Positions 926-28,806 of a stretch of 64,000 bases of DNA are shown here, piece by piece. Position 1 is the first letter of the stretch. Each line of letters begins with the position of its first letter. The position numbers and the translations under genes were made by a program. Origin of the DNA: Tenacibaculum jejuense (GTDB taxonomy: Bacteria; Bacteroidota; Bacteroidia; Flavobacteriales; Flavobacteriaceae); contig NZ_LT899436.1 of assembly GCF_900198195.1 (NCBI RefSeq), forward strand, positions 372,001 through 436,000, in the 5' to 3' direction. Under the pieces are notes generated by a model. The model was not told where the DNA came from. It ran no database searches and saw nothing but the letters and a program-made list of their open reading frames with translations.

Positions 926-1049
926 AATGTTTTGTGTATTGTAATTTGCAATTTTTTAATTGTTAAACTAATTAAAAGTCATCAGCATTTGGTTTTGCGA
1001 GATTTAGTCCAAGGGAGAAATCTGTAAGTTATTAATAGTATATTTTGTT
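926..1049 (-). repeat. attC-like site A (family 1, decayed)
   Basis: This is a family-1 repeat with many substitutions. The conserved AAC at the crossover end is AAT (926-928), which on the minus strand changes the R' triplet GTT to ATT. The other end still reads TATATTTTGTT. It is probably inactive for recombination at that end. Confidence 0.75.
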
Positions 1050-1094
1050 ATTGAATATTTTTAACCCAATTTTTATCTGTTAGTTCAATAATTA

Positions 1095-1466
1095 TTACGT
1101 TGAAATTAAATTTTTTACTCTTTTTGAATCGTCAATATGTATATCAAAACCAAAAGCTGAAGGGCATTTCGACGAGTCAATTTTTCTAGATTTTAAAACT
1201 TTACGATTTTCCTTTTCGTTTACGATTCGGTTTACTTTTATTGCATAATATTTTAATGTTAGCCCTATCTTTATTTTACTGCGAAAGGAAGTGGCGTAAA
1301 TATGAGTAGTGTTGTGTCCATGACTTTGTAATTCAGTAATTAAATTAAAAGTATCTTTTCGGGTACTTTCAATATCAAATAACTTTGCTATTATATTTCT
1401 ACTTTCAGTTTCAAGTTCACTTCCGTTTGAGATTTAAGTATTGTCAAGATTAAAACTTATATTCAT
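1095..1466 (-). pseudogene. Cassette gene interrupted by a stop codon
   Basis: Reading the minus strand from the ATG at 1464-1466 gives MNISFNLDNT, then TAA at 1434-1436, then an open frame of about 113 codons to the TAA at 1095-1097. The downstream part is protein-like (KLFDIESTRKDTFNLITELQ, then IKIGLTLKYYAIKVNRIV). The simplest reading is a 123-residue gene with one nonsense mutation near its start. A restart further in is possible, but there is no good ATG early in the frame. The family is unknown. It shares a cassette with the mscS-like gene. Confidence 0.6.
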
Positions 1467-1548
1467 TTATAATACTTAATAAGTATTAATAAAATATTAG
1501 ATGTTATTTTGTTTATGATTCAATTGTGTGGTTTTGGTCAGTAGAAAA

Positions 1549-2400
1549 TCAATTTTTATTAATTATAGTTCGAATTGGAAAAGGTATATTGATATTGTTG
1601 TTATCAAATACTTCTTTTATTTTCATAACTGCTTCACTTTTTACTTCTAATGCAGTTAGGTTTTCTTGTGCGTCTACCCAAAACCTTAAAAGAAAGTCTA
1701 TAGAACTATCCCCAAAATCTGTAAAATAGAATTCGATAGATTCTTCAGTACTAGGAGGAAATAATTCTTTAATAGCTTTGACGGAAATTTTTTTTACATT
1801 CTTAAGATCTGATTCATATCCTACTCCACAAGTTATGGTTGTTCTTATCCTTTTCGTAAGTCCATAATTTTTAAATGGTTGGTCTAAAATCAGTTTATTA
1901 GGAACGACCACTATATTATTGTCTGCTTCCTTAATTTTTGTATTACGTAAACCAATTTCAGTTACTCTTCCAGAAAAACCATTAGTCTCAACCCAATCAC
2001 CTATGTTCATTTCGTCTTTTATAGCAATAAATATTCCAGAGAATGTATTTGAAAGCGTGCCTTGTAATGCTAAACTAATAGCAAGTCCAGCGACACCTGC
2101 TCCTGCTAATAAAGATTTAAGAGTTCCATCTAAATTCAGTATAGATAGTGCTAGAAAAGTCCCGAGAATAATTATAATTACAGAAAGTACTGTTGTCACT
2201 AAATCTCTAATTGATGGCTGTTTTATAAGTTTTTTTAGATATTTGTTCGCAAGACTTTTCAAATGCCTTGAAAACCAGTATGCCAATACAAATACTAAAA
2301 GAGCAATTAACATGTTTGGAAGATTCAAAATAAGTGAATCAAACCAACTTGCAAGTTTATTTAATAATTTTGACCAAGCTGAATCTAGCTGTTTTTCCAT
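1549..2400 (-). CDS. mscS: Small-conductance mechanosensitive channel, MscS family
   Basis: This 283-residue inner-membrane protein matches MscS in length and layout. TM1 is at about 29-44 and TM2 at about 66-88. The pore helix TM3 (96-125) has the Gly/Ala-rich pattern LLAGAGVAGLAISLALQG. The conserved beta domain follows (GDWVETNGFSGRVTEIGLR, then VVVPNKLI). MscS channels open under hypo-osmotic stress to release solutes. The gene is in the cassette array, downstream of a truncated attC-like site (2431-2536). MscS is normally a stable chromosomal gene, so a cassette location is unusual. Confidence 0.92.
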   Translation of the reverse strand: MEKQLDSAWSKLLNKLASWFDSLILNLPNMLIALLVFVLAYWFSRHLKSLANKYLKKLIKQPSIRDLVTTVLSVIIIILGTFLALSILNLDGTLKSLLAGAGVAGLAISLALQGTLSNTFSGIFIAIKDEMNIGDWVETNGFSGRVTEIGLRNTKIKEADNNIVVVPNKLILDQPFKNYGLTKRIRTTITCGVGYESDLKNVKKISVKAIKELFPPSTEESIEFYFTDFGDSSIDFLLRFWVDAQENLTALEVKSEAVMKIKEVFDNNNINIPFPIRTIINKN

Positions 2401-2430
2401 TTTTAGATATATTATATAATCTTAATATTT

Positions 2431-2536
2431 AACTGAAACTTTTAATTGTAAAGTTAATTAAAAGTGGTGAGCTTTTGGTTTTGCGAGATTTAGTCCGAAG
2501 GATTAAATGCATAAGCAGTTAATAATACATTTTGTT
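2431..2536 (-). repeat. attC-like site B (family 1, truncated arm)
   Basis: The right two thirds match the family-1 consensus (TGTAAAGTTAATTAAAAG, the GCGAGATTTAGTCC hairpin, then ACATTTTGTT). The left arm is shortened by about 18 bp, so the outer stem cannot pair fully. Length is 106 bp against about 125 for intact copies. Confidence 0.8.
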
Positions 2537-2549
2537 ATGTGCAGTAATT

Positions 2550-2882
2550 TTATTCAGCTTCTATTTTATTGTTCACAATTCTAGTTCGAAATGGATTTCC
2601 ATTTTTAGAAGGTTTCCAGCCCAATTCAAAAGCTTGCTTAATCCAATTTGAAATATCATGCGGCGTTATAGGATTCACTATCTCAGTTTCTATATCATTC
2701 GGATGTTTTCTGTCTGTACAGATAAATAAGTTCGTACCTGGGTTTTGCTCCTACTCAATAGCAACATGTAATTTTCCAATTCCGTAAACCGATTGAGTGT
2801 AGGTTGCTTTTTTTCGAATCAGCCATCTAAATTTTAATCCATCAACATCTATTTTTCTTGTTCCTTTTTTAGGTATTGCCAT
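2550..2882 (-). pseudogene. Cassette gene interrupted by an in-frame TAG
   Basis: The minus-strand frame starts MAIPKKGTRKIDVDGLKFRW, stops at TAG (2751-2753, codon 44), and continues in the same frame to a TAA at 2550-2552 (KQAFELGWKPSKNGNPF near the end). Restored, it would be a protein of about 110 residues, apparently belonging to a family of small conserved bacterial proteins of unknown function. It fills one cassette between sites B and C. The cassette ends still pair approximately (GTTATGTGCA with TGTACACAAC). Confidence 0.65.
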
Positions 2883-2899
2883 TTTTTATTATTGTACAC

Positions 2900-3025
2900 A
2901 ACGGTCTCGTATAACCATCAGTTATGGGTTAAATTAACGATTATTTTCGTTTTAGCACAAGCTTTAGCAGTTCCGAGTGGATTCGGACGTAGTCAAATCC
3001 GCCGTAATTGCGGTTATACATTGTT
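2900..3025 (-). repeat. attC-like site C (family 2)
   Basis: 126 bp, AAC(2900)-GTT(3025). Family 2 has arms GTATAACC / GGTTATAC, an internal stem GGATTCG / CAAATCC (CGAATCC in other copies) around GACGTAGT, and a CCGTAATTGCGG segment. One arm copy (CATCAGTTATGG) has drifted. Confidence 0.88.
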
Positions 3026-3037
3026 GTAATACGTTTT

Positions 3038-3478
3038 TTATTCAACTCTTTTAATATAATCGTTCATTTTCGGTTGGATATACCAAATTCCAATAAAGTA
3101 ATACCAAATCCCGAAAAAGAGTCCAATTCCATTCGATTCTTTTAACCTTTCTCTTTTTTCAAATTTTATTATTGTTCTAGAAGTCAAAATCATCAGTAAT
3201 AAGATATTGAACATTGCGGCAAAATGGAATGGTAAAGTTTTTTCCATATTTATATTTCCAGTAAGTATTAAAATCCATACACTAATCAAATAAAAAGTTG
3301 GATATCCGACAAGAATATTCAGTAGAATTTTATTCATTCTGCTGGATTTCGTGTTCTTTTTATTTAGTTCAATTCCAATTGAGTACATCCAAATCAAATA
3401 AGGAATTCCTAATAATGAAAGCCAAAATATATTCTTAGGTCTTTTACTTAAATATCTTTTAGTCAAATCTGTTTTCAA
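3038..3478 (-). CDS. Cassette membrane protein, unknown
   Basis: This 146-residue protein has about four hydrophobic segments (near 17-35, 49-70, 83-98 and 120-135) separated by basic loops, so it is an integral membrane protein. There is no recognisable motif. It is the only gene in its cassette, which is bounded by sites C and D. The stop codon lies 13 bp from the GTT of site C and the start about 20 bp from site D, the usual tight packing of this array. Confidence 0.6.
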   Translation of the reverse strand: MKTDLTKRYLSKRPKNIFWLSLLGIPYLIWMYSIGIELNKKNTKSSRMNKILLNILVGYPTFYLISVWILILTGNINMEKTLPFHFAAMFNILLLMILTSRTIIKFEKRERLKESNGIGLFFGIWYYFIGIWYIQPKMNDYIKRVE

Positions 3479-3497
3479 AGTTTTTCAAATTAATAAC

Positions 3498-3622
3498 AAC
3501 GTTTTGTGTATTGTTATTTGCGATTTTTTGATTGTAAAGTTAATTAAAAGCGCTGAACTTTTGGTTTTGCGAGATTTAGTCCGAAGGATTAAATCCGTAA
3601 GCAATTAACTATACATTTTGTT
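3498..3622 (-). repeat. attC-like site D (family 1)
   Basis: 125 bp, typical family-1 copy: AACGTTTTGTGTATTG at one end, TATACATTTTGTT at the other, internal hairpin GATTTAGTCC-GAA-GGATTAAATC. Outer flanks belong to different cassettes (AATAACAAC on the left, GTTATGCTTTC on the right). Confidence 0.92.
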
Positions 3623-4419: not shown

Positions 4420-4544
4420 AACGTTTTGTGTATTGTTATTTGCGATTTTTTGTTTATAAAGTTAATTAAAAGCGATGGACTTTTGGTTTTACGAGATTTA
4501 GTCTGAAGGAATAAATCCGCAAGCAATTAATTATACACGTTGTT
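4420..4544 (-). repeat. attC-like site E (family 1)
   Basis: 125 bp, AAC 4420-4422 to GTT 4542-4544. One internal change (GTCTGAAGG in place of GTCCGAAGG). The right end GTTAGGC and the matching GCCTAAC at 5291 fit the classical integron core consensus GTTRRRY / RYYYAAC exactly. Confidence 0.93.
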
Positions 4545-4594
4545 AGGCATTGTTTTTTAATTCCTAGAGTATAAGATGAAACTCAAAATCATTC

Positions 4595-5281
4595 TCATGC
4601 ACTAATCGTATTTCTATTTTTTAGACTTATTACTATTTGATTGATCTCATTATAAATCATATCAAAAATAGTTTTGGTTTTAGAATTGTAAAGATATGTT
4701 TCGTATTCATAAGTGTCATTCTCGTAAATAAATTCTTTATAAGATCCGTGATTATCATATGTTATCATATTTTCATCTGGTCCGTTTAAAATTAAAAGAG
4801 ACCTTCCTCCACAACATTCATCGAATGATATATAATCAATTAGTAGATTTTCTTTTTCATTAGAACTAGTGTAAATTTCTTCAATTCTCTTTGAATTAAA
4901 TGTCTTACTTTCTTTATCGTAATAACCTTCTTCTATTTCAGATTTACTAACTCCATTTTGAATTAGTTTTATTAGAAAGTCCTCTGAAAAAAAAGATTCA
5001 ACAGGATAATATGAAGCTATATTGTGGTTAAATAAATCGAGGAATGAATATCCTTTTGAACCAACAATTTCTAATACTTTCTTTAGCTCTACAGAAAGTT
5101 TAGTGTCAAATTTTTTTTCAAATAAATTAATCTCATAAGAAATGGGATGGAAATAATTAGGCAAGCCATAAAGAATGTGTTTCAAACCTTTATTTTCCAT
5201 TAATATGCTTTTCTTAGCTTCATTGCTTAATTGTGAAACTATATTTTCAAGTTCAGATACTATTGAGGTTATTTGTTCCAT
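4595..5281 (-). CDS. SUKH/SMI1-KNR4-like protein (tentative)
   Basis: A 228-residue cytoplasmic protein. Residues about 48-80 (FEKKFDTKLSVELKKVLEIV) look like the N-terminal helix pair of SMI1/KNR4 (SUKH) proteins, and the later ISFDECCGGRSLLILNG segment fits the beta strands of that fold. SUKH proteins often give immunity to contact-dependent or secreted toxins. The match is by eye and partial. It is the single gene of the cassette between sites E and F, whose ends GTTAGGCAT and ATGCCTAAC are perfectly complementary. Confidence 0.5.
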   Translation of the reverse strand: MEQITSIVSELENIVSQLSNEAKKSILMENKGLKHILYGLPNYFHPISYEINLFEKKFDTKLSVELKKVLEIVGSKGYSFLDLFNHNIASYYPVESFFSEDFLIKLIQNGVSKSEIEEGYYDKESKTFNSKRIEEIYTSSNEKENLLIDYISFDECCGGRSLLILNGPDENMITYDNHGSYKEFIYENDTYEYETYLYNSKTKTIFDMIYNEINQIVISLKNRNTISA

Positions 5282-5294
5282 TTAAATTATGCCT

Positions 5295-5419
5295 AACGTT
5301 TTGTGTATTGTTATTTGCGATTTTTTGATTGTAAAGTTAATTAAAAGAGATGAACTTTTGGTTTTGCTAGATTTAGTCCGAAGGATTAAATCCGCAAGCA
5401 GTTAACTATACATTTTGTT
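5295..5419 (-). repeat. attC-like site F (family 1)
   Basis: 125 bp, AAC 5295-5297 to GTT 5417-5419. Standard family-1 sequence with GCTAGATTTAG in place of GCGAGATTTAG. Confidence 0.92.
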
Positions 5420-5446
5420 AGCTACCGTATTTAATCCATAATAAAT

Positions 5447-6187
5447 TTATTGTTTAATTTCAAGCCCTTGACTAATGAGGGATATTTTTTCTAATATTTT
5501 TCGTAGCTCTTTATGTAGTTTCATATTATCTATTATTACTTTTTCACTTATGACTATATGGTGTGATTTTTCATTTGGTGGTTTTACTTCTAAAACAGGT
5601 GTGAAATTTGGAAATAAAAATGATAAAAAACCGTGAGTATAACAATCTCTGTCGTAAATGTAATTATGTAATTTTTTTGTGAAGCTTTTTCTTTTTTCAG
5701 AGTTATTCAGTTCGTTTATTTGATGAAATATCTTGTCAGTTTTAATTATACAACTCAAAATGTTTCTTAGTTGATTGAATGTTAAATTACCATTTAAAAG
5801 GTATTTTTTTAATTCTTTACATTTACTATTTCTTTCAACAATCTCTGCTATTTCATTTTTCTTTAAATAAAAATTATAAATACTTTCCAGTTGTTTATTT
5901 ATTGTTTCAGATAATCTACTCAATTTTGATATTCTACAAGAGAGAAACTCATATTGATTTATTAAATCGTCAATAATATTTTGATTCAATGCATTTAGTT
6001 CATTTCTTACTTCATATAAAATCTTATGAGGATTTACATTATCTTCATCTTCAATTCTCGCAATTTCAATTAATACTGACATTTCCATTACTTCTGGATT
6101 TTCTTCAAAATTTTTACTTGGAATTGTCAATTGTGCAGAAGTAAATATTTCAATTCTTTCAGGTCGTGCAATTTTTTCAGTTTTCAT
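5447..6187 (-). CDS. Helical cassette protein with HEPN-like RxxxxH motif
   Basis: 246 residues, predicted mostly alpha-helical and cytoplasmic. I do not recognise a named family. Near residue 183 there is an IYDRDCYTHG segment, an Rx4H arrangement on a helix, as in HEPN-domain RNases and their relatives. HEPN proteins act in toxin-antitoxin and anti-phage systems, so this could be a defence cassette, but a single motif is weak evidence. The C-terminal 40 residues are a further amphipathic helix. It is alone in the cassette between sites F and G; ends GTTAGCTACC and GGTAGGTAAC pair with one mismatch. Confidence 0.55.
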   Translation of the reverse strand: MKTEKIARPERIEIFTSAQLTIPSKNFEENPEVMEMSVLIEIARIEDEDNVNPHKILYEVRNELNALNQNIIDDLINQYEFLSCRISKLSRLSETINKQLESIYNFYLKKNEIAEIVERNSKCKELKKYLLNGNLTFNQLRNILSCIIKTDKIFHQINELNNSEKRKSFTKKLHNYIYDRDCYTHGFLSFLFPNFTPVLEVKPPNEKSHHIVISEKVIIDNMKLHKELRKILEKISLISQGLEIKQ

Positions 6188-6226
6188 TTCATTACAGGTT
6201 CAGATTTCTGTTTGGTAATGGTAGGT

Positions 6227-6350
6227 AACGTTTTGTGTATTGTTATTTGCGTTTTTTGTTTGTAAAGTTAATTAAAAGTGGTGAATTTTTGGTTTTGTGA
6301 GATTTAGTCCGAAGGAATAAATCCGCAAGCAATTAATAATACATTTTGTT
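6227..6350 (-). repeat. attC-like site G (family 1)
   Basis: 124 bp, AAC 6227-6229 to GTT 6348-6350. Family-1 sequence with the usual GATTTAGTCCGAAGGA hairpin. Confidence 0.92.
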
Positions 6351-6773: not shown

Positions 6774-6832
6774 AACGTCTAGTGTAAGGTGTCGTAGCTG
6801 ACGATAGGAAGCTATGCACTTTACACATTGTT
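6774..6832 (-). repeat. attC-like site H (family 5, short)
   Basis: 59 bp only: AACGTCTAGTGTAAGGTG, GTCGTAGCTGACG, then GCTATGCACTTTACACATTGTT. The arms AGTGTAAGGTG and CACTTTACAC pair. It closely resembles site BB at 27578. This is close to the minimum length of classical attC sites. Confidence 0.9.
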
Positions 6833-8064: not shown

Positions 8065-8187
8065 AACGGTCTCGGCTATGAGTAGTTGCGTGGGTTAGCA
8101 CGTAACTTTGCAAGTACACACCAAGCTGAAAATCCGCGAGGATTTTCAGAAGTAGTCGGGAACAAGCAATTACTTATAGCCATTGTT
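8065..8187 (-). repeat. attC-like site I (family 4)
   Basis: 123 bp, AACGGTCTCGGCTATGAGTAG to CTTATAGCCATTGTT. The arms GGCTATGAGTAGTTGC and GCAATTACTTATAGCC pair, with an inner hairpin GAAAATCC-GCGA-GGATTTTC. Related to W and Z. Confidence 0.88.
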
Positions 8188-8200
8188 GTGAGTAGTTGTT

Positions 8201-8830: not shown

Positions 8831-8838
8831 TTACTCAC

Positions 8839-9027: not shown

Positions 9028-9093
9028 GTAAAACGTTTTTCTACCAATTGTCTATATCTATTGTATCTAATCATCTTTAGGTAATCCATAGTG

Positions 9094-9342: not shown

Positions 9343-9349
9343 GAATTAT

Positions 9350-9900: not shown

Positions 9901-9911
9901 AAATGTTTTAC

Positions 9912-10036: not shown

Positions 10037-10045
10037 AGCATACGT

Positions 10046-10375: not shown

Positions 10376-10398
10376 TATGATTTGTTTTAATGTATGCC

Positions 10399-11168: not shown

Positions 11169-11184
11169 TTTTCAGCTTGTTGCT

Positions 11185-11871: not shown

Positions 11872-11878
11872 TGTTGGC

Positions 11879-19300: not shown

Positions 19301-19308
19301 AATTGTAA

Positions 19309-22167
19309 TTAATCTTTGAAAAATTGATTGATACGTAGGTTTACTTCTGCAATATTGTCTAATAGTTTATTGCTATCTTCTAAATACAGAAAGTCGAATT
19401 TTTTGTATCCAAATTTGTCTTCGTTATGTTTTAAGAAGTCTGTTTCTATAAAGTTCTTTTTCTTAATAAAGTCTTTGTTATTAGCGTAGCCTTCTCCTTT
19501 GGTTTCAATAATTAATGCTTTGTATATAGCATCTTTAGCATTGCGTTTAATGATTAAAAAGTCGGTTGTGTATTTACCTACTTTATTCCATCGTTTTCCT
19601 TTTTTAGCAAAGCAGTTTATAATAAACTCTGTAATACCACGTTCGCCATTAAAATAGATTTCTAAATTATTTTCTTTAAAGTCTTTTAGCTTTAATATTT
19701 CATTCAAGAACTGACTTTCAAAACCACTATCGAAATTGTAAGGCAACAGATGAAATGATTTGTCTTTTTGTTCAATTAATGGATTTATGGTTTCTGCTGC
19801 AACTTTTGCAATTTCATCAAACTTACCCTGTTCTGTTAATTTTAAAATTCGCTCCTGCTTTTGTTTATTAAAATCTTCTGATGAAAGTGGGTTACTGTCA
19901 AATTGTAAAATCTGTTCTGTAACCTCTTTATTTGGATATAAGTTTTTATGTTTTGGAATAGATTTTAACTTATCTACAATAAGTAAGTTGGCTTCTTTTG
20001 GAATTATTTCTTCTTCGGTTGTTAATTCTCTTTTAATACTGAAAGCCACTCGAATTTTAGATTCAATTTTATAAGTATCAAATTGTTCATTAAAAAATAG
20101 ATTTCCTTCGTTGTTTAGAGTAATTGCTTTAAATATAGGTTTTAATTGTTCATCAAAGCGATGTAATTCTTTTGCGGAAATTGTACTGAAACTATCTTTA
20201 GAAATATTTGCAATCCATTGATTGTAGTTAGCCAACATGATACCAGAACTGTTTAAAAAAGATAATTCACCTTCGTCTAAAAAGTCTAATCCTTTAGTAG
20301 TTATAGCATAGTTAGCTTTGTAATCTTTTATGTTTTTTAGTAGCTCTTCTAATTTAACTTTGGTGTTTGGCTTTTGTTCTTCCTCAATAGATTGATATTT
20401 TACTTTTAGCTGGTAATAGTCAATTTTTGGAAGTTTAAGAAATTCCATTCTTGAATGACGTTCAATTAAATCAGCACCTTTATTTTTGTCTAAATTGTTA
20501 AGTTCTTCAATAGACGTGTTTTGTTCTTTTTCTAATGCCTTATTAAGTATTGTAGCATTTTCTCTATTTAACCAAATTAAAGCTGATTCATCATTACCTT
20601 TAGTAACTTGTCTTAAACATCTACAAGTTGTTTGAATGATAGCATTTTTGGAAGCGCTCTTACTTTTTTGCGGTAGTATTACAGAAGTTAAACTCTTACA
20701 ATCCCAACCTTCTTTACCAATTGCTACTAACAGAATGTATTTCTTTTTTGAAATTGCCGTGTCTAATGATTTAAATTGTAATTCATTTTCCTTTGGTAAA
20801 CTGTACGTTTTATTACCACCGTGAAATCTTAATATTTCGTCAGGATGAATTTTTAAATCACTTTGAAGAAATGGATAAACTTCTTCTTCTAACATTTCGA
20901 TATTACTGCAATAAATAGCAACTTTTGGAATTGTACCATTTGCGTAAGTTAAATCTCCATACGCTTCATTAAAGTCGTTAATACCTTCTTTTACTATTTG
21001 TAAATGAGTAAGATTATCGGCTATTTTAACTGTTGGATTTTTTAAAAAATCTTCTATTGCATTTGTAAGCGGATAATAATAGACTGTATTTGTAATTTCT
21101 GAAATTCTTAAGGTATCATCTTCTGTAAGCAGAATTTTTTCTGCTGTTGATAAATAAGGCGTACCTGAAAAACCGAGTACAGTGGTTATACTACCTCTAT
21201 CATTCCATCTATTAACTACCTGTCTTAATTTAATGTCTGATTTTGCCGCGTGATGCACTTCGTCTATCAAAATAGATAAGTTTGGTATTTTACCAATCAG
21301 TGCTCTTAATTCGTTAGCCTTTTTGTCCTCATCATCTTCAAATAAGTTTGTTTGACCTGTTGTATCAACTCTGTTTAAGATTACTTTTTCAGCATTTACT
21401 ATAAAAACTTGCCCAAAAGGGTCAGGAAGTATTTCGTTTACTTTTTGAGCATTTGGATTTCGAGCTTTATTACTTTTTTTAGCAGACTTTGCTTCATCTA
21501 ATACATCAAACTTTAGTTGTTTTTTTAGATTAGTTGCTGCTGGTTCTGGAATAACCCAAGATGGGTCAAAATCTTCAATAGTTCTTAAACTTGGTCCAAT
21601 TGATGTTTTTAAACCAGAAGGAATTAAAACCAAAAAATTATGAGCAAAATTTTTATTTTCGGGTTCATTTGAAGCAAAATATAAATCTAAATAGATAAAT
21701 GCAGCCATTAAGTAAGTTTTACCAGAACCCATTGGTAAACTCATTAGATAGTCAGAATAGTTTACATTGTAAAATAACTTTTTAATTATTTCTTGATAAT
21801 CTAACTCTTCTGGTGATTTTATGATTTCCTGTTCAAGGTTAGGTAGTTGCTTTTTGCCTTTCACTTTTTGTCTTGCAAAATCAAATAAAGAAAACGCCTC
21901 TTTATTGTTTTCAAGGAATTCTCTTGCATTTTGGTTAATATCTAATTTTGACAAATCAGTACCATTTGTAAAAAAACCTTCTGCAAATAGCTGCCAAAGA
22001 GGTTTGTTTTGACCTTGAATTTTCAAAAACAAAAAAGTTTCTATTGCCTCAATTTGAGTATCTCTTAACTGACCTTTGTTTTTAATATATGTAATAAGTT
22101 CATTCACACTACAATCAGGTGATTGTAACCATTGAACTGTTTTATTTCTTATTATCTTATCTAGCAT
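19309..22167 (-). CDS. res: Type III restriction endonuclease subunit (Res)
   Basis: 952 residues, the ATP-dependent helicase-nuclease subunit of a type III system. Seen: Walker A PMGSGKT (145-151), DEVHH (about 302-306), VLGFSGTPYLS (motif III), and QTTCRCLRQ (motif VI, about 514-522). Near the C-terminus, YTTDFLIIKR and ALIIETKGEG (about 870-892) form a D...ExK nuclease site of the PD-(D/E)xK type. Res and Mod together cut unmodified DNA away from the recognition site. It overlaps the upstream regulator by 11 bp. All key motifs are intact, so the system looks functional. Confidence 0.9.
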   Translation of the reverse strand: MLDKIIRNKTVQWLQSPDCSVNELITYIKNKGQLRDTQIEAIETFLFLKIQGQNKPLWQLFAEGFFTNGTDLSKLDINQNAREFLENNKEAFSLFDFARQKVKGKKQLPNLEQEIIKSPEELDYQEIIKKLFYNVNYSDYLMSLPMGSGKTYLMAAFIYLDLYFASNEPENKNFAHNFLVLIPSGLKTSIGPSLRTIEDFDPSWVIPEPAATNLKKQLKFDVLDEAKSAKKSNKARNPNAQKVNEILPDPFGQVFIVNAEKVILNRVDTTGQTNLFEDDEDKKANELRALIGKIPNLSILIDEVHHAAKSDIKLRQVVNRWNDRGSITTVLGFSGTPYLSTAEKILLTEDDTLRISEITNTVYYYPLTNAIEDFLKNPTVKIADNLTHLQIVKEGINDFNEAYGDLTYANGTIPKVAIYCSNIEMLEEEVYPFLQSDLKIHPDEILRFHGGNKTYSLPKENELQFKSLDTAISKKKYILLVAIGKEGWDCKSLTSVILPQKSKSASKNAIIQTTCRCLRQVTKGNDESALIWLNRENATILNKALEKEQNTSIEELNNLDKNKGADLIERHSRMEFLKLPKIDYYQLKVKYQSIEEEQKPNTKVKLEELLKNIKDYKANYAITTKGLDFLDEGELSFLNSSGIMLANYNQWIANISKDSFSTISAKELHRFDEQLKPIFKAITLNNEGNLFFNEQFDTYKIESKIRVAFSIKRELTTEEEIIPKEANLLIVDKLKSIPKHKNLYPNKEVTEQILQFDSNPLSSEDFNKQKQERILKLTEQGKFDEIAKVAAETINPLIEQKDKSFHLLPYNFDSGFESQFLNEILKLKDFKENNLEIYFNGERGITEFIINCFAKKGKRWNKVGKYTTDFLIIKRNAKDAIYKALIIETKGEGYANNKDFIKKKNFIETDFLKHNEDKFGYKKFDFLYLEDSNKLLDNIAEVNLRINQFFKD

Positions 22168-22366
22168 TCGTCTCGTTGTCTGTACTTTGAATTAGGTCTT
22201 TAACATCAACGGAAAGTATTTCCGCAATTTTAAAAAGGTCTTCTAAACTTGGTTGCCTTTTGTTTCTTGCGTATTCATTAATTGTCGGATAACTTTTGTC
22301 CATCTTTTCCGCAAGCCAGGTTTGACTAATTCCTTTTTCTTTTAAAATTTCCTTTATTCGGTTCAT
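22157..22366 (-). CDS. XRE-family helix-turn-helix regulator of the R-M operon
   Basis: 69 residues, almost entirely one Cro/C1-type HTH domain (ISQTWLAEKMDKSYPTINEY as the helix-turn-helix, about 13-32). It is the first gene of the operon and overlaps res by 11 bp. Small XRE proteins in this position usually act as controller proteins that time endonuclease expression after entry into a new host, which would matter for a mobile cassette. A candidate operator lies 38-69 bp upstream. Confidence 0.88.
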   Translation of the reverse strand: MNRIKEILKEKGISQTWLAEKMDKSYPTINEYARNKRQPSLEDLFKIAEILSVDVKDLIQSTDNETNAR

Positions 22367-22403
22367 TTTAAACCTTTTTTATTAGAGTTGAAAGATAATA
22401 AAG

Positions 22404-22435
22404 TTCATTGAATAATAATGAAAATATTCATTGAA
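22404..22435 (-). promoter_or_regulatory. Candidate operator: two TTCATTGAA repeats
   Basis: Two direct copies of TTCATTGAA (22404-22412 and 22427-22435) with a 23-bp step, about two helical turns, lie just upstream of the XRE gene. This fits an autoregulatory operator. No promoter hexamers are clear. The remaining bases up to site V (22436-22539) hold nothing else I can identify. Confidence 0.4.
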
Positions 22436-22539
22436 ATATCACGAGTAGTGGTGGGGAAGGCAAGCTCTTTTTATTTTGTGAGGAACGAGCAAAATGAAAT
22501 GTGCTTGACTGTGCGGTTGGCTTTTCAGAGCTTGTGTAC

Positions 22540-22662
22540 AACGTTTCGTGTATTGTTATTTGCGATTTTTTGATTGTAAAGTTAATTAAAAGTGATGGGC
22601 TTTTGGCTTTGCGAGATTTGTCCGAAGGATAAATCCGTAAGCAATTAATAATACATTTTGTT
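22540..22662 (-). repeat. attC-like site V (family 1)
   Basis: 123 bp, AAC 22540-22542 to GTT 22660-22662, family 1 (GATTTGTCCGAAGGATAAATC). Its left flank GTGTACAAC pairs with GTTGTACAC at 17165, 5.4 kb away, defining the R-M operon as a single cassette. Confidence 0.92.
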
Positions 22663-22673
22663 ACCCAATGTTT

Positions 22674-23252
22674 TTATTCAGATTCAGTTAATTTATAAAA
22701 ATCAGTTTCTTTTTGAATATCAGATATAGATTTGTTGAATTTCTTTTTTAGGTGTTTATCTATTAGTTTATTATAACATTCCATTTCTGACCTTAAAATG
22801 CAACCCATTGAATAGTATTCAATATTATATTTCGATCCCAAAATTTCATCCATTCCTATAATAGAGCCAATACCAAAATGAAAGTATTTTAATTCACCCT
22901 TTTTTAAGTCAATAGAGAATCTATTTTTCATTTTTTCACAAGTATCTAATTCATAATATTCAGTAAGTCTCTTTTGTTTTTGTAAAGATTTATAATATTC
23001 AGTCCATAAATGTAAATTTAAAACAAAACAGATTCCAAATGCGCCAATCATTGTTTTTGTCAAGAAATTCCGCCAATCTTTAGCGAGGGAATAAAGTCCA
23101 ACACTCATAAAACCTATGAAAAATAAAACCTTTGAAATTGTCAATTCCAATTTTACATTGTACCAATATTGCATTTTTACTGAATTAAAAATTAATAAAG
23201 TAAATGTGATAATTGATAAAATTAGAAGGATGTATTTTGTTCTTTTTTTCAA
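22674..23252 (-). CDS. Cassette membrane protein, unknown
   Basis: 192 residues. Three hydrophobic segments (about 7-23, 40-57 and 66-83) are followed by a soluble domain of about 100 residues with three Cys (DTCEKM, MGCILR, MECYNK). No family recognised. It is alone in its cassette between sites V and W. The ends GTTACCCAATG and TGTTGGGTAAC pair over eight bases. Confidence 0.6.
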   Translation of the reverse strand: MKKRTKYILLILSIITFTLLIFNSVKMQYWYNVKLELTISKVLFFIGFMSVGLYSLAKDWRNFLTKTMIGAFGICFVLNLHLWTEYYKSLQKQKRLTEYYELDTCEKMKNRFSIDLKKGELKYFHFGIGSIIGMDEILGSKYNIEYYSMGCILRSEMECYNKLIDKHLKKKFNKSISDIQKETDFYKLTESE

Positions 23253-23271
23253 TTTATTGCAAATGTTGGGT

Positions 23272-23397
23272 AACGTTGTTGTGTATGTTTCAGTTGCGGC
23301 GTTTAAGCATTAAATTTAGTAAATAATTACTGAATGGAAAATCCGTAAGGATTTTCCAAAATAGGCTAGAAACTAGCAATTGAATATACACGTTGTT
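23272..23397 (-). repeat. attC-like site W (family 4)
   Basis: 126 bp, AACGTTGTTGTGTATG to ATATACACGTTGTT. Inner hairpin GGAAAATCC-GTAA-GGATTTTCC, as in site I and (altered) site Z. Confidence 0.9.
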
Positions 23398-23407
23398 AGC
23401 AAACGTT

Positions 23408-24076
23408 TTATCTATGAACTATATTCGTTAGTATAATTATTCTAACAAAATAATTATTCAAGTCAACTTTATTATTTAAAATATTACCTGCCAAAACTAA
23501 TGGAGACATAAAGCTTCCACTTATATTCAGATTTTCAACATAAGGTTTTAATAATTCAGATTTTAAAGATGCTCTCTTTAAAGATTCAAAAAATATTCCA
23601 TTCAAATTAGGTTCCTTATATTTTTCAAGAATACTTCTTTTTAAACTTAAATTATTTTGAGATGTTTCAGAAATTGCATAATTAAACTCTCCGTTAGTAT
23701 TTAAGTGTTTGTATTTCGTAATTAAAACTTTCTCATTACTTTCAGAGATTACAGATTTTCCAACCCAGATTGAATCGATTACATTATAAATATGAAACTT
23801 TAAATTATTCTTTTCCAATATTTTTTCTCCATTTTGTAGTAAGCCACTATTCAACTCAATTTCATTTTCAAAAAAATCTTTCAAAAACTTTTTGTATGAA
23901 TTTTGAATGTTTTTATCTGGGTAGTTTTTCTTCAAGAAATTTGTTTCAAAATCCAATAAAAGTAAATCTAAATTTTCAGAATTTACTTTTCCAAAACTAT
24001 CTCTGAATTCACTTTCTTGTGATATTAAAGAAAATGTAAGAAGTAAAAAACTAAATATTATTAACTTTCTTTTCAA
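23408..24076 (-). CDS. Exported cassette protein; paralog of 14169-14888
   Basis: 222 residues with a signal peptide (MKRKLIIFSFLLLTFSLIS) and no lipobox. Residues 22-70 share the pattern of the lipoprotein at 14169-14888 (FRDSFGKVN, FETNFLKKNYP, SYKKFLKD). The function is unknown. The C-terminal end is hydrophobic (YFVRIIILTNIV). The cassette ends GTTAGCAAACG and TGTTTGCTAAC pair over nine bases. Confidence 0.65.
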   Translation of the reverse strand: MKRKLIIFSFLLLTFSLISQESEFRDSFGKVNSENLDLLLLDFETNFLKKNYPDKNIQNSYKKFLKDFFENEIELNSGLLQNGEKILEKNNLKFHIYNVIDSIWVGKSVISESNEKVLITKYKHLNTNGEFNYAISETSQNNLSLKRSILEKYKEPNLNGIFFESLKRASLKSELLKPYVENLNISGSFMSPLVLAGNILNNKVDLNNYFVRIIILTNIVHR

Positions 24077-24096
24077 TTTTTCGTTTAATGTTTGCT

Positions 24097-24222
24097 AACG
24101 TATTTGTGTATGATTTTTTGCGGGAAAAGGACGTGAGTCGTTTTCCGTTGTTGTGGAAAGATAATTAATAAGATTGAATTTCTGGTGAGGAAATTCAGCC
24201 GCAATTAATTATATACGGTGTT
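24097..24222 (-). repeat. attC-like site X (family 6)
   Basis: 126 bp, AACGTATTTGTGTATG to ATATACGGTGTT. Same inner layout as site S (GGACGTGAGTCG, GAATTTCTGGTGAGGAAATTC). Confidence 0.9.
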
Positions 24223-24768
24223 AGCTATAGTTATTTTTTTTATAATGTTATTTTTATGCTCTAGAATTAATCTGCTGCTGAATAGGTTAAACTTAAAATC
24301 ATATAAGTATTTCTTTTTAAATTCAGTGGGTGTCCCAAACGTTTTAAAAAAATCAGAAACTTTAGTTCCCACGGTCAAATTATATTTGAGCGGGAATTCT
24401 TTATTATCAGATTCGAAGAGTTGAATTCTAAGTCCATTGGTTCCAAAAGTCCAAGTCGAATCAGTTTTATATGTTGAAAAACTCATTTCAGCAATCTTTC
24501 TGTTGTCCTTTAAATATTCAACATAATAATTTTCACGAGGGAATATATAAGTTGAGTCATTGGCATTTGTAAGTTGTTTCAAATTAGTCTTGAAATCTAA
24601 GTTTTTTAATGATGAATTATCTCTTGGGTCTAATAGGAAATTCTTAATTAATACTGAATCCAGTTCTGTTTTTTTCTTGTTAATTTCAGTTTTGTTTCCA
24701 GCGTGTTTACAACTCCAGACTGATAGAAGAAGATACATCAAAATCACCAGTTTGTTTGTCTTTTTCAT
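24205..24768 (-). CDS. Cassette lipoprotein, unknown
   Basis: 187 residues. MKKTNKLVILMYLLLSVWSC is a lipoprotein signal peptide with Cys20. The mature part is charged at first, then beta-rich; the segment LTVGTKVSDFFKTFGTPTEF resembles the SmpA/BamE-like G-x-S-x-x-x-V-x-x-x-F-G-x-P pattern of small periplasmic proteins. The final codons and the TAA (24205-24207) lie inside attC-like site X. The function is unknown. Confidence 0.65.
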   Translation of the reverse strand: MKKTNKLVILMYLLLSVWSCKHAGNKTEINKKKTELDSVLIKNFLLDPRDNSSLKNLDFKTNLKQLTNANDSTYIFPRENYYVEYLKDNRKIAEMSFSTYKTDSTWTFGTNGLRIQLFESDNKEFPLKYNLTVGTKVSDFFKTFGTPTEFKKKYLYDFKFNLFSSRLILEHKNNIIKKITIANTVYN

Positions 24769-24778
24769 AATTATAGCT

Positions 24779-24822
24779 AACGTTTTGGCTAAGCTGCGTT
24801 TTAATGCAGTTTAGGTTTTGTT
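24779..24822 (-). repeat. attC-like site Y (family 8, minimal 44 bp)
   Basis: 44 bp only: AACGTTTTGGCTAAGCTGCG then TTTTAATGCAGTTTAGGTTTTGTT. The arms CTAAGCTGC and GCAGTTTAG pair with one mismatch around TTTTAAT-like bases. It is the shortest site here, below the length of most known attC sites. Confidence 0.82.
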
Positions 24823-25350
24823 GGCAGTAGTTTTTCTTTCTTTCCATTCCGATTTCAATATAGACATAATCAATTTATCGTGAAATCCATTATCTCGGAA
24901 AGATGCTTCTCTTAATCGTCCTTCAATTTTAAATCCAGACTTTTCATATGCTTTCAATCCGCCAATATTAGGTTCAGATACTGTTAGCATTATTCTGTTT
25001 AATTTTTTGTCTACAAATCCTATTTTCAAAATCTGTTCAGTAACTTTTGTTCCGATTCCCTTTCCCCATAATTTCTTTTCACCAATGAAAATATAATACT
25101 CACCAGATTTATTTGTCTCTGAAATATCACAAATACCAGCATATCCAATTAATTCATTAGTTGATTCTAAAAATATACCCAGGGTAATATCTTTTTCATT
25201 TTTAAGTAATTCTGAATACCAATTTTCAATTTCCTTTTCGGTATTGATTTTTCTAAATAGTGACAAAGAATATTTAATTACATCATCATCATTAATCCAG
25301 TCATAGAATGGAAAAATGTCTTTCTTTGATAATGTTTTTAATGTAATCAT
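24811..25350 (-). CDS. GNAT acetyltransferase, RimJ/RimL-SpeG type
   Basis: 179 residues from the ATG at 25348-25350 (MITLKTLSKKDIFPFYDW). It has the N-acetyltransferase layout: YDWINDDDVIKYSL (alpha1-alpha2), IGYAGICDI (beta strand), GEYYIFIGEKKLWGKGIGTKV with the acetyl-CoA pyrophosphate loop KGIGTK, then VSEPNIGGLKAYEKSGFKIE. It transfers an acetyl group from acetyl-CoA to an amine on a peptide, polyamine or antibiotic; the substrate is unknown. The ANKT end and stop TAA (24811-24813) come from site Y. Confidence 0.9.
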   Translation of the reverse strand: MITLKTLSKKDIFPFYDWINDDDVIKYSLSLFRKINTEKEIENWYSELLKNEKDITLGIFLESTNELIGYAGICDISETNKSGEYYIFIGEKKLWGKGIGTKVTEQILKIGFVDKKLNRIMLTVSEPNIGGLKAYEKSGFKIEGRLREASFRDNGFHDKLIMSILKSEWKERKTTANKT

Positions 25351-25374
25351 CTTTATTTTTTTCAAATTACTGCC

Positions 25375-25500
25375 AACGTTGTTGTATATGGTTTGTTGCG
25401 TGTTTCAAGCAAATAATTTAGTAAATAAATACCGATCAAGAAAGTCCGAGAGGACTTTCGCAAGTAGGCAAGAAGCCAGCAATAAATTATATACCGTGTT
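25375..25500 (-). repeat. attC-like site Z (family 4)
   Basis: 126 bp, AACGTTGTTGTATATGG to TATATACCGTGTT. Inner hairpin GAAAGTCC-GAGA-GGACTTTC, the same design as W but with compensatory changes that keep the stem paired. Confidence 0.9.
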
Positions 25501-25512
25501 GTGCATTGTAAT

Positions 25513-26220
25513 TTATTTCCAACTTCCATCAATTTCAATAAATAAATTAGTTAAATGTCTTTCTTCTGATTTTTTAATATTTATTTGACTTTCAAGATGT
25601 TCAATTATTCCCTTTAGTTGCTGAATAATTTCGTCAATATTTACTGAAACTTCTTGAAATGTATTATCTAAGTTTCTAATAATTCCAGTATAACAAATAT
25701 TATAAATTTCTTTTTCTTTAAATTTAGAGTTAACACCTAAAATCTTTCCATTCATTTTATTTTTATCAGTAAAAGTTCCTGTTGATACTGCAAATAACTT
25801 TGAGTCATTAGTGTTTTTAATATTTTTTGTCCAAGAAATTACTCCATAAATTGGAAATTCTTTTTCAATTAAGATTTCAGTAATTCTTTTTTCAATATGA
25901 GCAATTGTATTTCTCAACTGCCTAACTTCATAAAAGTTTTCAAAAAGCGGATTGTTTTTCTCAATTCCAAAATGTTCATTTAATAAGTTTGAAAAAATCG
26001 TTAGATTATTAAAAATTGACCATATTTCTAAATAAAGTTCTTGAAATACTAGTCCTTTTGGATTTGGTTTATTGCTAAATTTATTTAATTTTTCTTTTAG
26101 ATTTTTATATGATATTTCACAAATATCTACACTACAAGTAATTGCGTCAAAGACAGGGATTTGTCTAGGTAATAAAATTTTCGGTGGTTTACGAATAAAT
26201 GAGTTTTCCGAGATTATCAT
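25513..26220 (-). CDS. Cassette protein with HEPN-like RNTIAH motif
   Basis: 235 residues, cytoplasmic and largely helical. FYEVRQLRNTIAHIEKRI (about 97-114) has the Rx4H motif on a helix, typical of HEPN and Cthe_2314-like RNase folds. The C-terminal part is beta-rich, then helical (IDEIIQQLKGIIEHLESQ). No exact family is recognised. A role in toxin-antitoxin or phage defence is possible but rests on one motif. It is alone in its cassette. The ends GTTGTGCATTG and TAATGCACAAC pair over nine bases. Confidence 0.55.
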   Translation of the reverse strand: MIISENSFIRKPPKILLPRQIPVFDAITCSVDICEISYKNLKEKLNKFSNKPNPKGLVFQELYLEIWSIFNNLTIFSNLLNEHFGIEKNNPLFENFYEVRQLRNTIAHIEKRITEILIEKEFPIYGVISWTKNIKNTNDSKLFAVSTGTFTDKNKMNGKILGVNSKFKEKEIYNICYTGIIRNLDNTFQEVSVNIDEIIQQLKGIIEHLESQINIKKSEERHLTNLFIEIDGSWK

Positions 26221-26249
26221 ATTATCACTTCGTCTTTTTTATAATGCAC

Positions 26250-26372
26250 AACGGTTCGTGTATGAGTAGTAGTGGATTTCTACTCGCAAACCTTTCGGTT
26301 TTGCACAGACCTTTGTTTTATAACTATACTTTTGTATTATCACTTAAATCACTATTACTTATACACTGTGTT
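26250..26372 (-). repeat. attC-like site AA (family 7)
   Basis: 123 bp, AACGGTTCGTGTATGAGTAG to CTTATACACTGTGTT. Arms GTGTATGAGTAGTAGTG and CACTATTACTTATACAC pair, with an inner AACCTTTCGGTTT-like stem. Confidence 0.86.
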
Positions 26373-27549: not shown

Positions 27550-27577
27550 ATTATATTGATGAATGGTAATTACTGCT

Positions 27578-27636
27578 AACGGATCGGGTATGTTGTCGTA
27601 GCTGACGTTAGGAAGCTATGCAATATACCCATTGTT
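27578..27636 (-). repeat. attC-like site BB (family 5, short)
   Basis: 59 bp, AACGGATCGGGTATGTTGTCG, TAGCTGACG, then GCTATGCAATATACCCATTGTT. Arms GGGTATGTTG and CAATATACCC pair. Sister of site H, 20.8 kb away. Confidence 0.92.
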
Positions 27637-27650
27637 GTAGGTAGTTATTT

Positions 27651-28706
27651 TTAGTTCCAATTTAGTACATCTTTAATTTCATCACGGATTACGGATTTTG
27701 TCGTTCCATCTGAAGTCATATATGGACTTTCTCCCGAACCCATACCCAATCCTAAACCACCAATCATATAAACCAAAATATCTCGATTATATGGTTCATT
27801 TATTTTGCTCATTATGCTTTTAATTTCAGAGTCATTAGTTGAAAATCCAAAATTTTCTTGAATGAAACTAATTAAAGTTGAGGGGCTTACTGCTCCTCCA
27901 TCAGAATCAAAGTCTTCAAGCAAGTGCATTAATAAACTGTAAGCAATTATTTTGCCTTTGTTATCCGTATTTAAAATGTGTAATTTATGTAAAGGCTCGA
28001 TACTTTTTTCATAATCTTCAATTCTAGTGTAGCATCTTGCTAGATTTATTAATGCGTCATCATTAATCGGCATTATTTGTAAGGCTTGGTTAAAGCTTTT
28101 TATTGCCAATTCTATATCACCATTATTGTATGCTGTTGCTCCTTTGTTATTGACTGTATCTGTTTGCATTGCAATTTGCATTTTATCAGTCATTGTCATT
28201 GAGCTGAATCTTTGAATAAATCCTTTGAAACTGTCTTTTTCAGTAAAGTTATCTAGTTTGGTTGATTGCTCTTTGTTCTCTGCTTTTTCATAAACAATGT
28301 CAATATTCCTATCGTGCATATGCAAAGAAACTTTATCAATTTTATTATTACTCTTGTAAAGAGTTAATCCATAGTCGGCAAAAGAAGAACCCATTGCATC
28401 TTTCCCAAAGCCTCTTAAAACTATTCTTTCGTTAGTTTCCTCTAACATTTTCATTTGTTTTTCAGCCATTTGAATGTTATCTCCCCAAACTGGGTGATTT
28501 CCATCCATATTGTACATTGTTACATAGAAAATTTTATTGTCAGAAGTTTTTACTCTTATTCCTCTCCAAGCTCCTTTATTATTAGCATTTGTCTGATGTC
28601 CGCTTTGTATTCGAGTATGGTCATCCGATAGAAATTTAAAATCTGTCAAATCAATTGATGGATTTTTACTATTTGAATCTGATTTAAAAATGTCAAAAAT
28701 TCCCAT
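27651..28706 (-). CDS. TPR-containing cassette protein (first cassette)
   Basis: 351 residues. The N-terminal 150 form an unrecognised beta-rich domain (AWRGIRVKTSDNKIFYVTMY). Residues about 180-260 form two tetratricopeptide repeats (GATAYNNGDIELAIKSFNQA, then ARCYTRIEDYEKSIEPLHKL). The C-terminal part has a glycine-rich segment (GGLGLGMGSGES). TPRs bind peptides of partner proteins. It occupies the first position after the attI-like site, so by integron logic it is the most recently inserted cassette. The ends GTTGTAGGTAG and TTACCTACAAC pair over ten bases. Confidence 0.7.
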   Translation of the reverse strand: MGIFDIFKSDSNSKNPSIDLTDFKFLSDDHTRIQSGHQTNANNKGAWRGIRVKTSDNKIFYVTMYNMDGNHPVWGDNIQMAEKQMKMLEETNERIVLRGFGKDAMGSSFADYGLTLYKSNNKIDKVSLHMHDRNIDIVYEKAENKEQSTKLDNFTEKDSFKGFIQRFSSMTMTDKMQIAMQTDTVNNKGATAYNNGDIELAIKSFNQALQIMPINDDALINLARCYTRIEDYEKSIEPLHKLHILNTDNKGKIIAYSLLMHLLEDFDSDGGAVSPSTLISFIQENFGFSTNDSEIKSIMSKINEPYNRDILVYMIGGLGLGMGSGESPYMTSDGTTKSVIRDEIKDVLNWN

Positions 28707-28757
28707 TCTCCTTTATTTTGTTTTATGATTTTCGCTTGGTTTTGTCTAATTACCTAC

Positions 28758-28806
28758 AACGTTTGTATATACAGTAATGCAGTATATCTGCATTTATGAT
28801 ATTGTT
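28758..28806 (-). other. attI-like primary recombination site (candidate)
   Basis: Between the first cassette and the integrase stop lies a 49-bp AAC...GTT unit of a different design: AACGTTTGTATATACAGT, a perfect 19-bp palindrome-type element at 28776-28794 (AATGCAG-TATAT-CTGCATT), then TATGATATTGTTG. It resembles no other repeat here. Its place, directly beside the recombinase gene and at the 5' end of the array, is where attI is expected. It could also be one more short attC. Confidence 0.6.

Follow-up and report, generated by a model that had tools for sequence, protein, structure and literature searches.

A 64,000-nucleotide (nt) stretch of the complete 4.61-Mb genome of Tenacibaculum jejuense (positions 372001–436000; hereafter the window) carries an integron-like array of 26 cassettes beside a tyrosine recombinase gene. 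The array was likely built and reshuffled by this head-encoded recombinase, which would join folded bottom-strand hairpins to an attI-like site; we put the probability of this reading at about 0.78. At the level of sequence, comparison within the window and with related genomes establishes cassette units with GTTR–YAAC boundaries, ends that change in compensation, covarying strand-polar hairpins, turnover of cassettes, a recurrent association with the family of the adjoining recombinase and the absence of the IntI insert. We infer that this recombinase is the agent and that it acts at attI on a bottom strand in folded form. The array is called integron-like, and not classed as an integron, because the defining features of the integron enzyme were tested and were not found.

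Array layout, cassette ends and site folds

An earlier note, made from the letters of the window, had proposed an array of about 28 units at 926–28806. The span matches: 27 intact sites bound 26 cassettes between 2900 and 28806 on the minus strand, next to the recombinase gene (28822–29925, minus strand), and two decayed sites at the end away from the recombinase (926–1050 and approximately 2440–2540; 75–86% identity to sites of the sister genome G659) extend the array to 926. Also as proposed, all units lie on one strand and most hold one gene. The longest overlapping open reading frame (ORF), read by eye from the ORF list, is on the minus strand in all 26 cassettes, and two cassettes are multi-gene (two genes at 13397–14020 and three at 17165–22542). 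Several cassette ORFs begin at GTG or TTG or extend a few bases into the site; counting only ATG ORFs wholly within the cassette ends, the minus strand is favored in 22 of 26. Sites were located by pairing left and right core patterns (24 sites) or by eye (8065–8187, 24779–24822 and 28758–28806); these patterns were used instead of a strict exact-stem search, which returned nine candidates, five of them real sites.

The sites are 44–189 nt long and their bodies fall into several families, including A (nine sites, 92% mean column identity) and B (six sites, 83%). Searched across the whole genome, the family A core gave 27 matches in two clusters only, the window array and 1012–1034 kb (control, 0), and the family B pattern gave eight matches in the same two clusters. 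Since the family A matches are confined in this way, the repeats are not dispersed; dispersal without genes in between is what the earlier note had named as speaking against its proposal. The shorter pattern GTTR and YAAC holds on both sides in all 27 sites of the window, whose AAC and GTT letters served to locate them, and the AAC and GTT boundaries are invariant in 54 aligned sites. The claim that the sites match the full integron consensus does not hold: GTTRRRY is found at one of 27 right ends and RYYYAAC at one of 27 left ends, a rarity that agrees with the accompanying remark that the repeats are unlike known attC sequences. Among 176 cassettes elsewhere, the figures are 17 starts and 18 ends.

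In integrons, the two R-box halves that meet in a circular cassette come from the same cassette, and the two ends of an arrayed site come from neighboring cassettes. The window array follows this logic. Over the 7 nt after GTT, the two ends of one cassette agree at 6.35 positions on average, compared with 3.11 for the two ends across one site and 2.67 for all other pairings, and none of 100,000 shuffles reached the within-cassette value. Ends across one site have hardly more than GTTR in common. The match fails at position 11, with A in the cassette start and G in the reverse-complemented end, and resumes at positions 12–14, such that cassette ends are complementary over approximately 14 nt with one fixed exception. 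Position 11 is a G·T pair on the bottom strand and an A·C mismatch on the top strand, and the same exception occurs in 163 of 176 cassettes from 28 other loci.

Related cassettes in other genomes reveal how the ends evolve. Between a cassette of loci L138 and L144 and its counterpart in L034 (89–90% identical inside), end positions 6, 7, 8 and 14 are changed on both ends and none is changed on one side. Another cassette pair from L138 and L034 (79%) differs at two end positions, both two-sided, again with no one-sided change. Comparisons involving L110 and some involving L142 were left out, as their single-sided changes are spurious because AACAAC shifts the register.

As judged by folding stability only, 26 of the 27 sites in the window and 137 of 148 sites elsewhere favor the bottom strand. 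We aligned the stems of 54 diverse sites, consisting of picks from 77 (of 127, near-copies removed) together with window sites. All 15 pairs of the consensus stem change on both sides, 91.5% of cells are paired, and covariation is 0.593, compared with 0.164 in shuffled alignments (0 of 500 shuffles reach the observed value) and at most 0.146 in slid versions. Columns 4–9 and 132–134 are unpaired, as in the spacer between the L stem and the R box of attC, and the range of site lengths in the window agrees with the variable terminal structure of attC. In classical attC, one arm carries extrahelical bases, and the choice of strand is directed by the first of them (PMC2727003). The 54-site consensus stem has no conserved one-sided bulge of this kind; G·T is the commonest pair at columns 17–123 (37 of 54) and 23–118 (45 of 52; this pair was added to the stem). 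On our reading, these conserved G·T pairs, which are A·C mismatches on the other strand, would signal strand choice as the extrahelical bases do in classical attC.

Cassette turnover and distribution of related loci

A second array lies at approximately 1012–1042 kb of the same genome (G000:C1:1012000-1042000, loci L197–L199). Its listed ORFs of at least 90 amino acids (aa) are on the minus strand, 18 cassettes chain under our default rule and 23 under a relaxed one, and no recombinase motif was found in the 1000–1055 kb around it. Here sites were found independently of the ends. Over 16 intervals, some of them bridging undetected sites, the two ends agree at 5.06 of 7 positions, compared with 2.74 across one site; 0 of 100,000 shuffles reach this value. 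Three cassettes are common to the two arrays at 96%, 93% and 93% identity, sites included, and a fourth stretch matches at 72%. For the shared cassette at the far end of the window array (2538–2902), which contains no minus-strand ORF of 60 aa, identity ends exactly at AAC|G, and the next site belongs to family B in the window and to family A in the second array. If our reading is correct, the second array would be served in trans.

Turnover is also evident between genomes. In the sister genome G659, the recombinase and attI region is conserved (89% over 1309 nt in one piece), as are the site families. All other matches of at least 80 nt between the window and G659 sit on sites and extend at most 48 nt past them; the 40 kb compared therefore yielded none of the window's cassette genes. 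In locus L132 (genome G257, same genus), a 550-nt unit is present in six copies identical at 550 of 550 positions, with identity stopping at GTT on both sides save for a few chance letters. Among 164 cassettes compared, one is common to L132 and Winogradskyella ursingii (608 of 608 nt aligned at 94%) and another to L138, L144 and Algibacter onchidii (approximately 850 nt at 89–92%). Judged by these sequence comparisons, cassettes are exchanged as units.

Several arrays contain scattered copies, identical or nearly so, of short cassettes in which no ATG ORF exceeds 32 aa: L132 (oriented positions 2177–14054), L127 (2171 onward), L142 and contig C9 of G659 (L177). The copies are of 550 nt (six), 417 nt (three), 332 nt (nine) and approximately 287 nt (four), with one copy right behind the recombinase in each of these arrays. 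Such cassettes might have a regulatory role or be selfish filler.

In 16 of 19 loci of the genus, ATATAACnnGTT directly follows the recombinase stop codon, with its GTT within approximately 45 nt of the stop in 15 of the 16 and approximately 160 nt away in L144. The window and G659 have other sequence in its place.

Relatives of the recombinase at E values of 1e-60 or better occur in 71 of 116 genomes of the genus and in 115 of 392 genomes of a phylum sample. The earlier note's own test was whether similar arrays with different cargo stand beside related recombinases, and they do: chains of at least three cassettes were detected at 15 of 20 genus loci and eight of 18 phylum loci, and the comparison with G659 shows the difference in cargo. 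Another eight loci had been preselected for chains of at least two, and five of them had at least three. Controls gave chains of at most two in 20 Markov sequences and in 31 real array-free stretches. The other strand is useless as a control because the rule reads alike on both strands, and chains at IntI loci are an unfair one because the array is often on the other side, as the direction of intI implies, or off the contig. Two loci (L188 and L196) fall outside the window's class, and on a Chryseobacterium plasmid three cassettes form a chain that begins approximately 0.3 kb behind such a recombinase.

A truncated relative (49.6% identity, residues 125–358) lies directly before tet(X3) on the Acinetobacter indicus plasmid p80-1-2-tetX3 (L205, 3552–5573), and 50 of 68 matching plasmid records are from Acinetobacter. 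We considered whether tet(X3) is a cassette of this system and rejected the idea, as no matching cassette ends were found around tet(X3).

True IntI proteins, scored by TIGR02249 above its cut-off, are encoded in 85 of 296 phylum genomes. By a count of kinship made by eye, one of 73 genomes of the window's class or closer has one, compared with 84 of 223 outside the class, so the IntI distribution looks complementary to the window's class. In view of these counts, the statement that integrons are rarely reported from Bacteroidota should be read with caution for the phylum as defined by GTDB.

The recombinase and competing explanations

The recombinase (367 aa) has a phage-integrase domain and a SAM-like domain (PF00589, PF13495), and its closest named relatives come from an uncultured Tenacibaculum sp. 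(P0001, 92%) and Tenacibaculum sp. ZS6-P6 (P0003, 77%). R218, K243, H307, R310, H333 and Y342 (the numbering omits the first Met), which we take to be the catalytic residues of a tyrosine recombinase, are invariant in 21 aligned proteins. Alignment to VchIntIA (2a3v) runs in two stretches that break at query residues 257–279 and chain residues 173–237, which correspond to the IntI insert; the protein is without this insert of approximately 40 residues (the additional domain, I2 helix region). In five proteins scanned, the extra N-terminal region of approximately 90 aa gave no Pfam family above cut-off. Listed Pfam assignments give PF22823 for many homologs, and a direct scan of four did not return it.

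If our reading is correct, excision would yield a circular cassette whose ends come together, which would complete the hairpin's outer stem. Cleavage by the recombinase would fall within the bottom-strand GTT core, and the cassette would be inserted at attI. New cassettes would enter beside the recombinase and old ones would decay at the far end. Because the enzyme is without the IntI insert (I2 helix region), the folded strand would have to be held in another way, perhaps by the extra N-terminal region.

Could the array instead be a true integron, with ordinary attC sites and an IntI that has lost the insert or never showed it? We consider this unlikely. The protein passes NF040815, named 'site-specific tyrosine recombinase/integron integrase' (235.6 bits, cut-off 220); a survey of tyrosine recombinases reports incomplete conservation of the insert within its 'integron-like' subgroup (PMC8138268); and an attI-like region, attC-like sites and a second array resembling a cluster of attC sites lacking an integron-integrase (CALIN) are all present. 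However, the protein does not pass the IntI model TIGR02249 (228.6 bits, cut-off 265), and neither do three array-bearing Bacteroidota relatives (L034, L030 and L016; 191–209 bits). Motif spacing, readable at 69 of 126 loci, is 100–101 in 18 proteins and 57–65 in 51. The window protein, at 58, belongs with the latter, whereas all seven of the 18 longer-spaced proteins that were checked pass TIGR02249 (389–477 bits). A 62-row tree splits 32 Bacteroidota proteins from 15 of IntI type, each with support of 100/100, leaving the window recombinase outside the IntI clade and placing XerA-like proteins without the insert, from archaea and other bacteria, at an unresolved fork on the side of IntI. GTTRRRY in just 17 of 176 cassettes is also at odds with ordinary attC. 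Of the earlier note's identification of an integron, then, the architecture, boundary logic and mobility stand, and membership of the IntI family does not, given the missing insert, the low TIGR02249 score and the separate tree group.

Slightly less probable still is an Xer-like action on double-stranded sites, with hairpins serving another purpose such as transcription termination. The closest solved structures, 4a8e (named XerC-like) and 5hxy (XerA), would fit such an enzyme, as would the absence of the insert credited with single-strand recombination. Two-strand exchange needs overlap, however, and since the ends across a site are alike barely past GTTR and the shared cassette changes site family at AAC|G, there is little common overlap for it. 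It would also leave aside the strand polarity of the stem, its covariation in the phylum sample, and ends that change in compensation.

It is very improbable that homologous recombination between repeated spacers shuffles the genes and that the recombinase gene is a bystander. Families A and B do recur many times in the array, but at the AAC|G junction two different site families meet, the six identical units are bounded at GTT, and the matching cassette ends and the motif behind the recombinase in 16 of 19 genus loci would go unexplained. Inverted ends around single genes superficially resemble repeats of the repetitive extragenic palindromic (REP) or terminator kind, or the inverted repeats at the termini of small transposons, but we give this explanation practically no credence: family A is limited to its two clusters, there is one site per gene in one orientation, neighboring units share the intervening site, none of 27 scanned array proteins has a transposase family, and a search of this genome with two site patterns found no solo units outside arrays.

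Several observations weigh against an array built by the adjoining recombinase. Judging from sequence, the recombinase is tied to the array by position and recurrence only, and it does not have the insert to which two papers ascribe an essential or decisive part in integron function (PMC8138268; PMC7790495). The attI motif of the genus, ATATAACnnGTT, is absent from the window and present in just one of 18 phylum loci. None of the 26 window cassettes is among those shared with loci of other genomes in the set of 164. A chain of three is missing at five of the 20 loci in the genus and at 10 of the 18 in the phylum sample, some of them limited by contig ends, and in G659 the detector chained just two cassettes although at least eight sites are present. 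The cassettes of other genomes were chosen by their end match, leaving only position 11, which was unscored, free of selection. Compensation is imperfect: L145 and L134 (82%) differ at three compensated positions but also at four one-sided ones, and several L142 copies have a one-sided difference at position 14. Finally, the bottom strand is the more stable in 52 of 176 cassette interiors; because this bias runs opposite to that of the sites, interiors are no neutral control for the fold.

With these points weighed, we still favor the head-encoded recombinase acting on folded bottom strands, and a second gene-capture system, one proper to the Bacteroidota, is probable. A fuller proposal, to which we give somewhat better than even odds, is that of a second integron lineage in Bacteroidota, in which N-terminally extended XerA-like recombinases would carry out single-strand recombination without the I2 helix, strand choice would reside in G·T pairs, 14-nt cassette-specific ends would close only in the excised circle, and cassettes would feed recombinase-less arrays and other genera.

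Cargo of the window array and relation to known systems

Sixteen of the 27 scanned array proteins have no Pfam family above cut-off. A defense-family scan identified the methyltransferase and regulators of the 5.4-kb cassette (17165–22542); among the other seven proteins given, one had a weak Cas6 match (E 0.0028) and the remaining six had none. This cassette combines genes for a helix-turn-helix (HTH) regulator, an N6/N4 DNA methylase and a ResIII helicase, so that an entire restriction-modification-like system appears to move as a single unit. An Rfam scan of the window returned two tRNAs only; two tandem tRNA-Asn genes with near-identical surroundings lie just upstream of the recombinase gene (30064–30410).

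Table 1. Recombinase gene, predicted attI region, sites and cassettes of the array, in window coordinates
Feature	Position	Strand	Basis
Tyrosine recombinase gene, 367 aa	28822..29925	-	Pfam PF00589, PF13495; NF040815; alignment to 2a3v
Predicted attI region, with site-like palindrome 28758–28806	28758..28821	-	between recombinase stop and first cassette
attC-like site, 59 nt	27578..27636	-	core pairing, end match, fold
attC-like site, 123 nt; the one of 27 with top strand more stable	26250..26372	-	core pairing, fold
attC-like site, 126 nt	25375..25500	-	core pairing, end match, fold
attC-like site, 44 nt	24779..24822	-	placed by eye; also in second array
attC-like site, 126 nt	24097..24222	-	core pairing, end match, fold
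attC-like site, 126 nt	23272..23397	-	core pairing, end match, fold
attC-like site, family A, 123 nt	22540..22662	-	core pairing, family alignment
attC-like site, 123 nt	17045..17167	-	core pairing, end match, fold
attC-like site, 189 nt	16252..16440	-	core pairing, end match, fold
attC-like site, 125 nt	15599..15723	-	core pairing, end match, fold
attC-like site, family A	14909..15033	-	core pairing, family alignment
attC-like site, family A	14018..14140	-	core pairing, family alignment
attC-like site, family B	13275..13399	-	core pairing, family alignment
attC-like site, family A	12506..12629	-	core pairing, family alignment
attC-like site, family B	11879..12004	-	core pairing, family alignment
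attC-like site, family A	11185..11306	-	core pairing, family alignment
attC-like site, family B	10399..10526	-	core pairing, family alignment
attC-like site, family B	9912..10036	-	core pairing, family alignment
attC-like site, 189 nt	8839..9027	-	core pairing, end match, fold
attC-like site, 123 nt, divergent in family B alignment	8065..8187	-	placed by eye; family alignment
attC-like site, 59 nt	6774..6832	-	core pairing, end match, fold
attC-like site, family A	6227..6350	-	core pairing, family alignment
attC-like site, family A; left end fits RYYYAAC/GTTRRRY	5295..5419	-	core pairing, family alignment
attC-like site, family A; right end GTTAGGC fits GTTRRRY	4420..4544	-	core pairing, family alignment
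attC-like site, family A	3498..3622	-	core pairing, family alignment
attC-like site, family B	2900..3025	-	core pairing, family alignment
Decayed site, far array end	2440..2540	-	76–86% matches to G659 sites
Decayed family A site, AACG to AATG, three core mismatches	926..1050	-	75–81% matches to G659 sites
Cassette: TPR protein, 351 aa (27651–28706)	27634..28760	-	ends 7/7; Pfam
Cassette: beta-propeller protein, 385 aa	26370..27580	-	ends 7/7; Pfam
Cassette: 235 aa, no Pfam	25498..26252	-	ends 7/7; Pfam scan
Cassette: GNAT acetyltransferase; shared, with its sites, by second array (93%)	24820..25377	-	Pfam; comparison
Cassette: 187 aa, no Pfam	24220..24781	-	ends 7/7; Pfam scan
Cassette: 222 aa ORF from TTG (23408–24076)	23395..24099	-	ends 7/7; ORF list
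Cassette: 192 aa, no Pfam	22660..23274	-	ends 6/7; Pfam scan
Three-gene cassette, 5.4 kb: HTH regulator, ResIII helicase, N6/N4 DNA methylase	17165..22542	-	ends 6/7; Pfam
Cassette: 188 aa, no Pfam	16438..17047	-	end comparison; Pfam scan
Cassette: 194 aa, no Pfam	15721..16254	-	end comparison; Pfam scan
Cassette: 222 aa, no Pfam	15031..15601	-	end comparison; Pfam scan
Cassette: 239 aa, no Pfam	14138..14911	-	end comparison; Pfam scan
Two-gene cassette: 77 aa ORF and DUF4160, 117 aa	13397..14020	-	ORF list; Pfam scan of DUF4160 protein
Cassette: 201 aa, no Pfam	12627..13277	-	end comparison; Pfam scan
Cassette: 159 aa, no Pfam over cut-off	12002..12508	-	end comparison; Pfam scan
Cassette: 195 aa, no Pfam	11304..11881	-	end comparison; Pfam scan
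Cassette: 217 aa, no Pfam	10524..11187	-	end comparison; Pfam scan
Cassette: 109 aa, no Pfam	10034..10401	-	end comparison; Pfam scan
Cassette: 107 aa, no Pfam	9025..9914	-	end comparison; Pfam scan
Cassette: 209 aa, no Pfam	8185..8841	-	end comparison; Pfam scan
Cassette: POT/MFS transporter, 404 aa	6830..8067	-	end comparison; Pfam
Cassette: DUF7674, 137 aa	6348..6776	-	end comparison; Pfam
Cassette: 246 aa, no Pfam	5417..6229	-	end comparison; Pfam scan
Cassette: 228 aa, no Pfam; shared, with its sites, by second array (96%)	4542..5297	-	Pfam scan; comparison
Cassette: Imm33-domain immunity-like protein, 254 aa	3620..4422	-	end comparison; Pfam
Cassette: 146 aa ORF; weakest end match (4/7)	3023..3500	-	ORF list; end comparison
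Far cassette beside decayed site, outside the 26; also in second array (93%)	2538..2902	-	comparison

For Bacteroidetes proper, IntegronFinder 2.0 reports a single complete integron, that of Salinibacter ruber M1 (PMC9024848). In a survey of 2008, a gene was called intI only if it encoded the additional domain (PMC2426708). Gene capture by integrons is credited to one enzyme family and its folded single-strand step to one insert (PMC7790495). Searches that define IntI by its insert (PMC2426708, PMC9668308) would miss the arrays described here, and a mobile gene pool in an abundant phylum may therefore be uncounted. Among the matches listed for open-access titles and abstract openings, a scope that excludes subscription journals and preprints, there was no description of such arrays; they may have been described before. 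Since the cassette system is widespread and its recombinase is without the insert, the claim that the insert is essential becomes directly testable: either it is not needed, or the step to folded single strands was taken twice. The 176 cassettes and 148 sites gathered here are enough to begin a detection model.

The window array shares with sedentary chromosomal integrons mostly one-gene cassettes in the same orientation, a recombinase and attI-like region at one end, a GTT core, hairpins favoring the bottom strand, largely unknown cargo and decay at the far end. It differs in that the recombinase is without the IntI insert, falls outside the IntI group and has an extra N-terminal region, in that its gene points the same way as the cassettes, and in that the R-box letters are cassette-specific rather than RRRY and G·T pairs stand in place of extrahelical bases. 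Like a CALIN, the second array has no recombinase motif in 1000–1055 kb, while sharing site families and three cassettes with the window array; its sites, unlike those of a CALIN, are of the Bacteroidota type. With XerA and NF040815 recombinases, for which 4a8e and 5hxy are the closest solved relatives, the window protein has the catalytic domain in common, whereas the approximately 90 extra N-terminal residues and the cassette array with its own sites set it apart. Finally, pdif modules, as generally known, are genes that lie between XerC/XerD sites and are exchanged; the array resembles them in the exchange of genes between recombinase sites and differs in its approximately 120-nt hairpin sites and dedicated neighboring recombinase.

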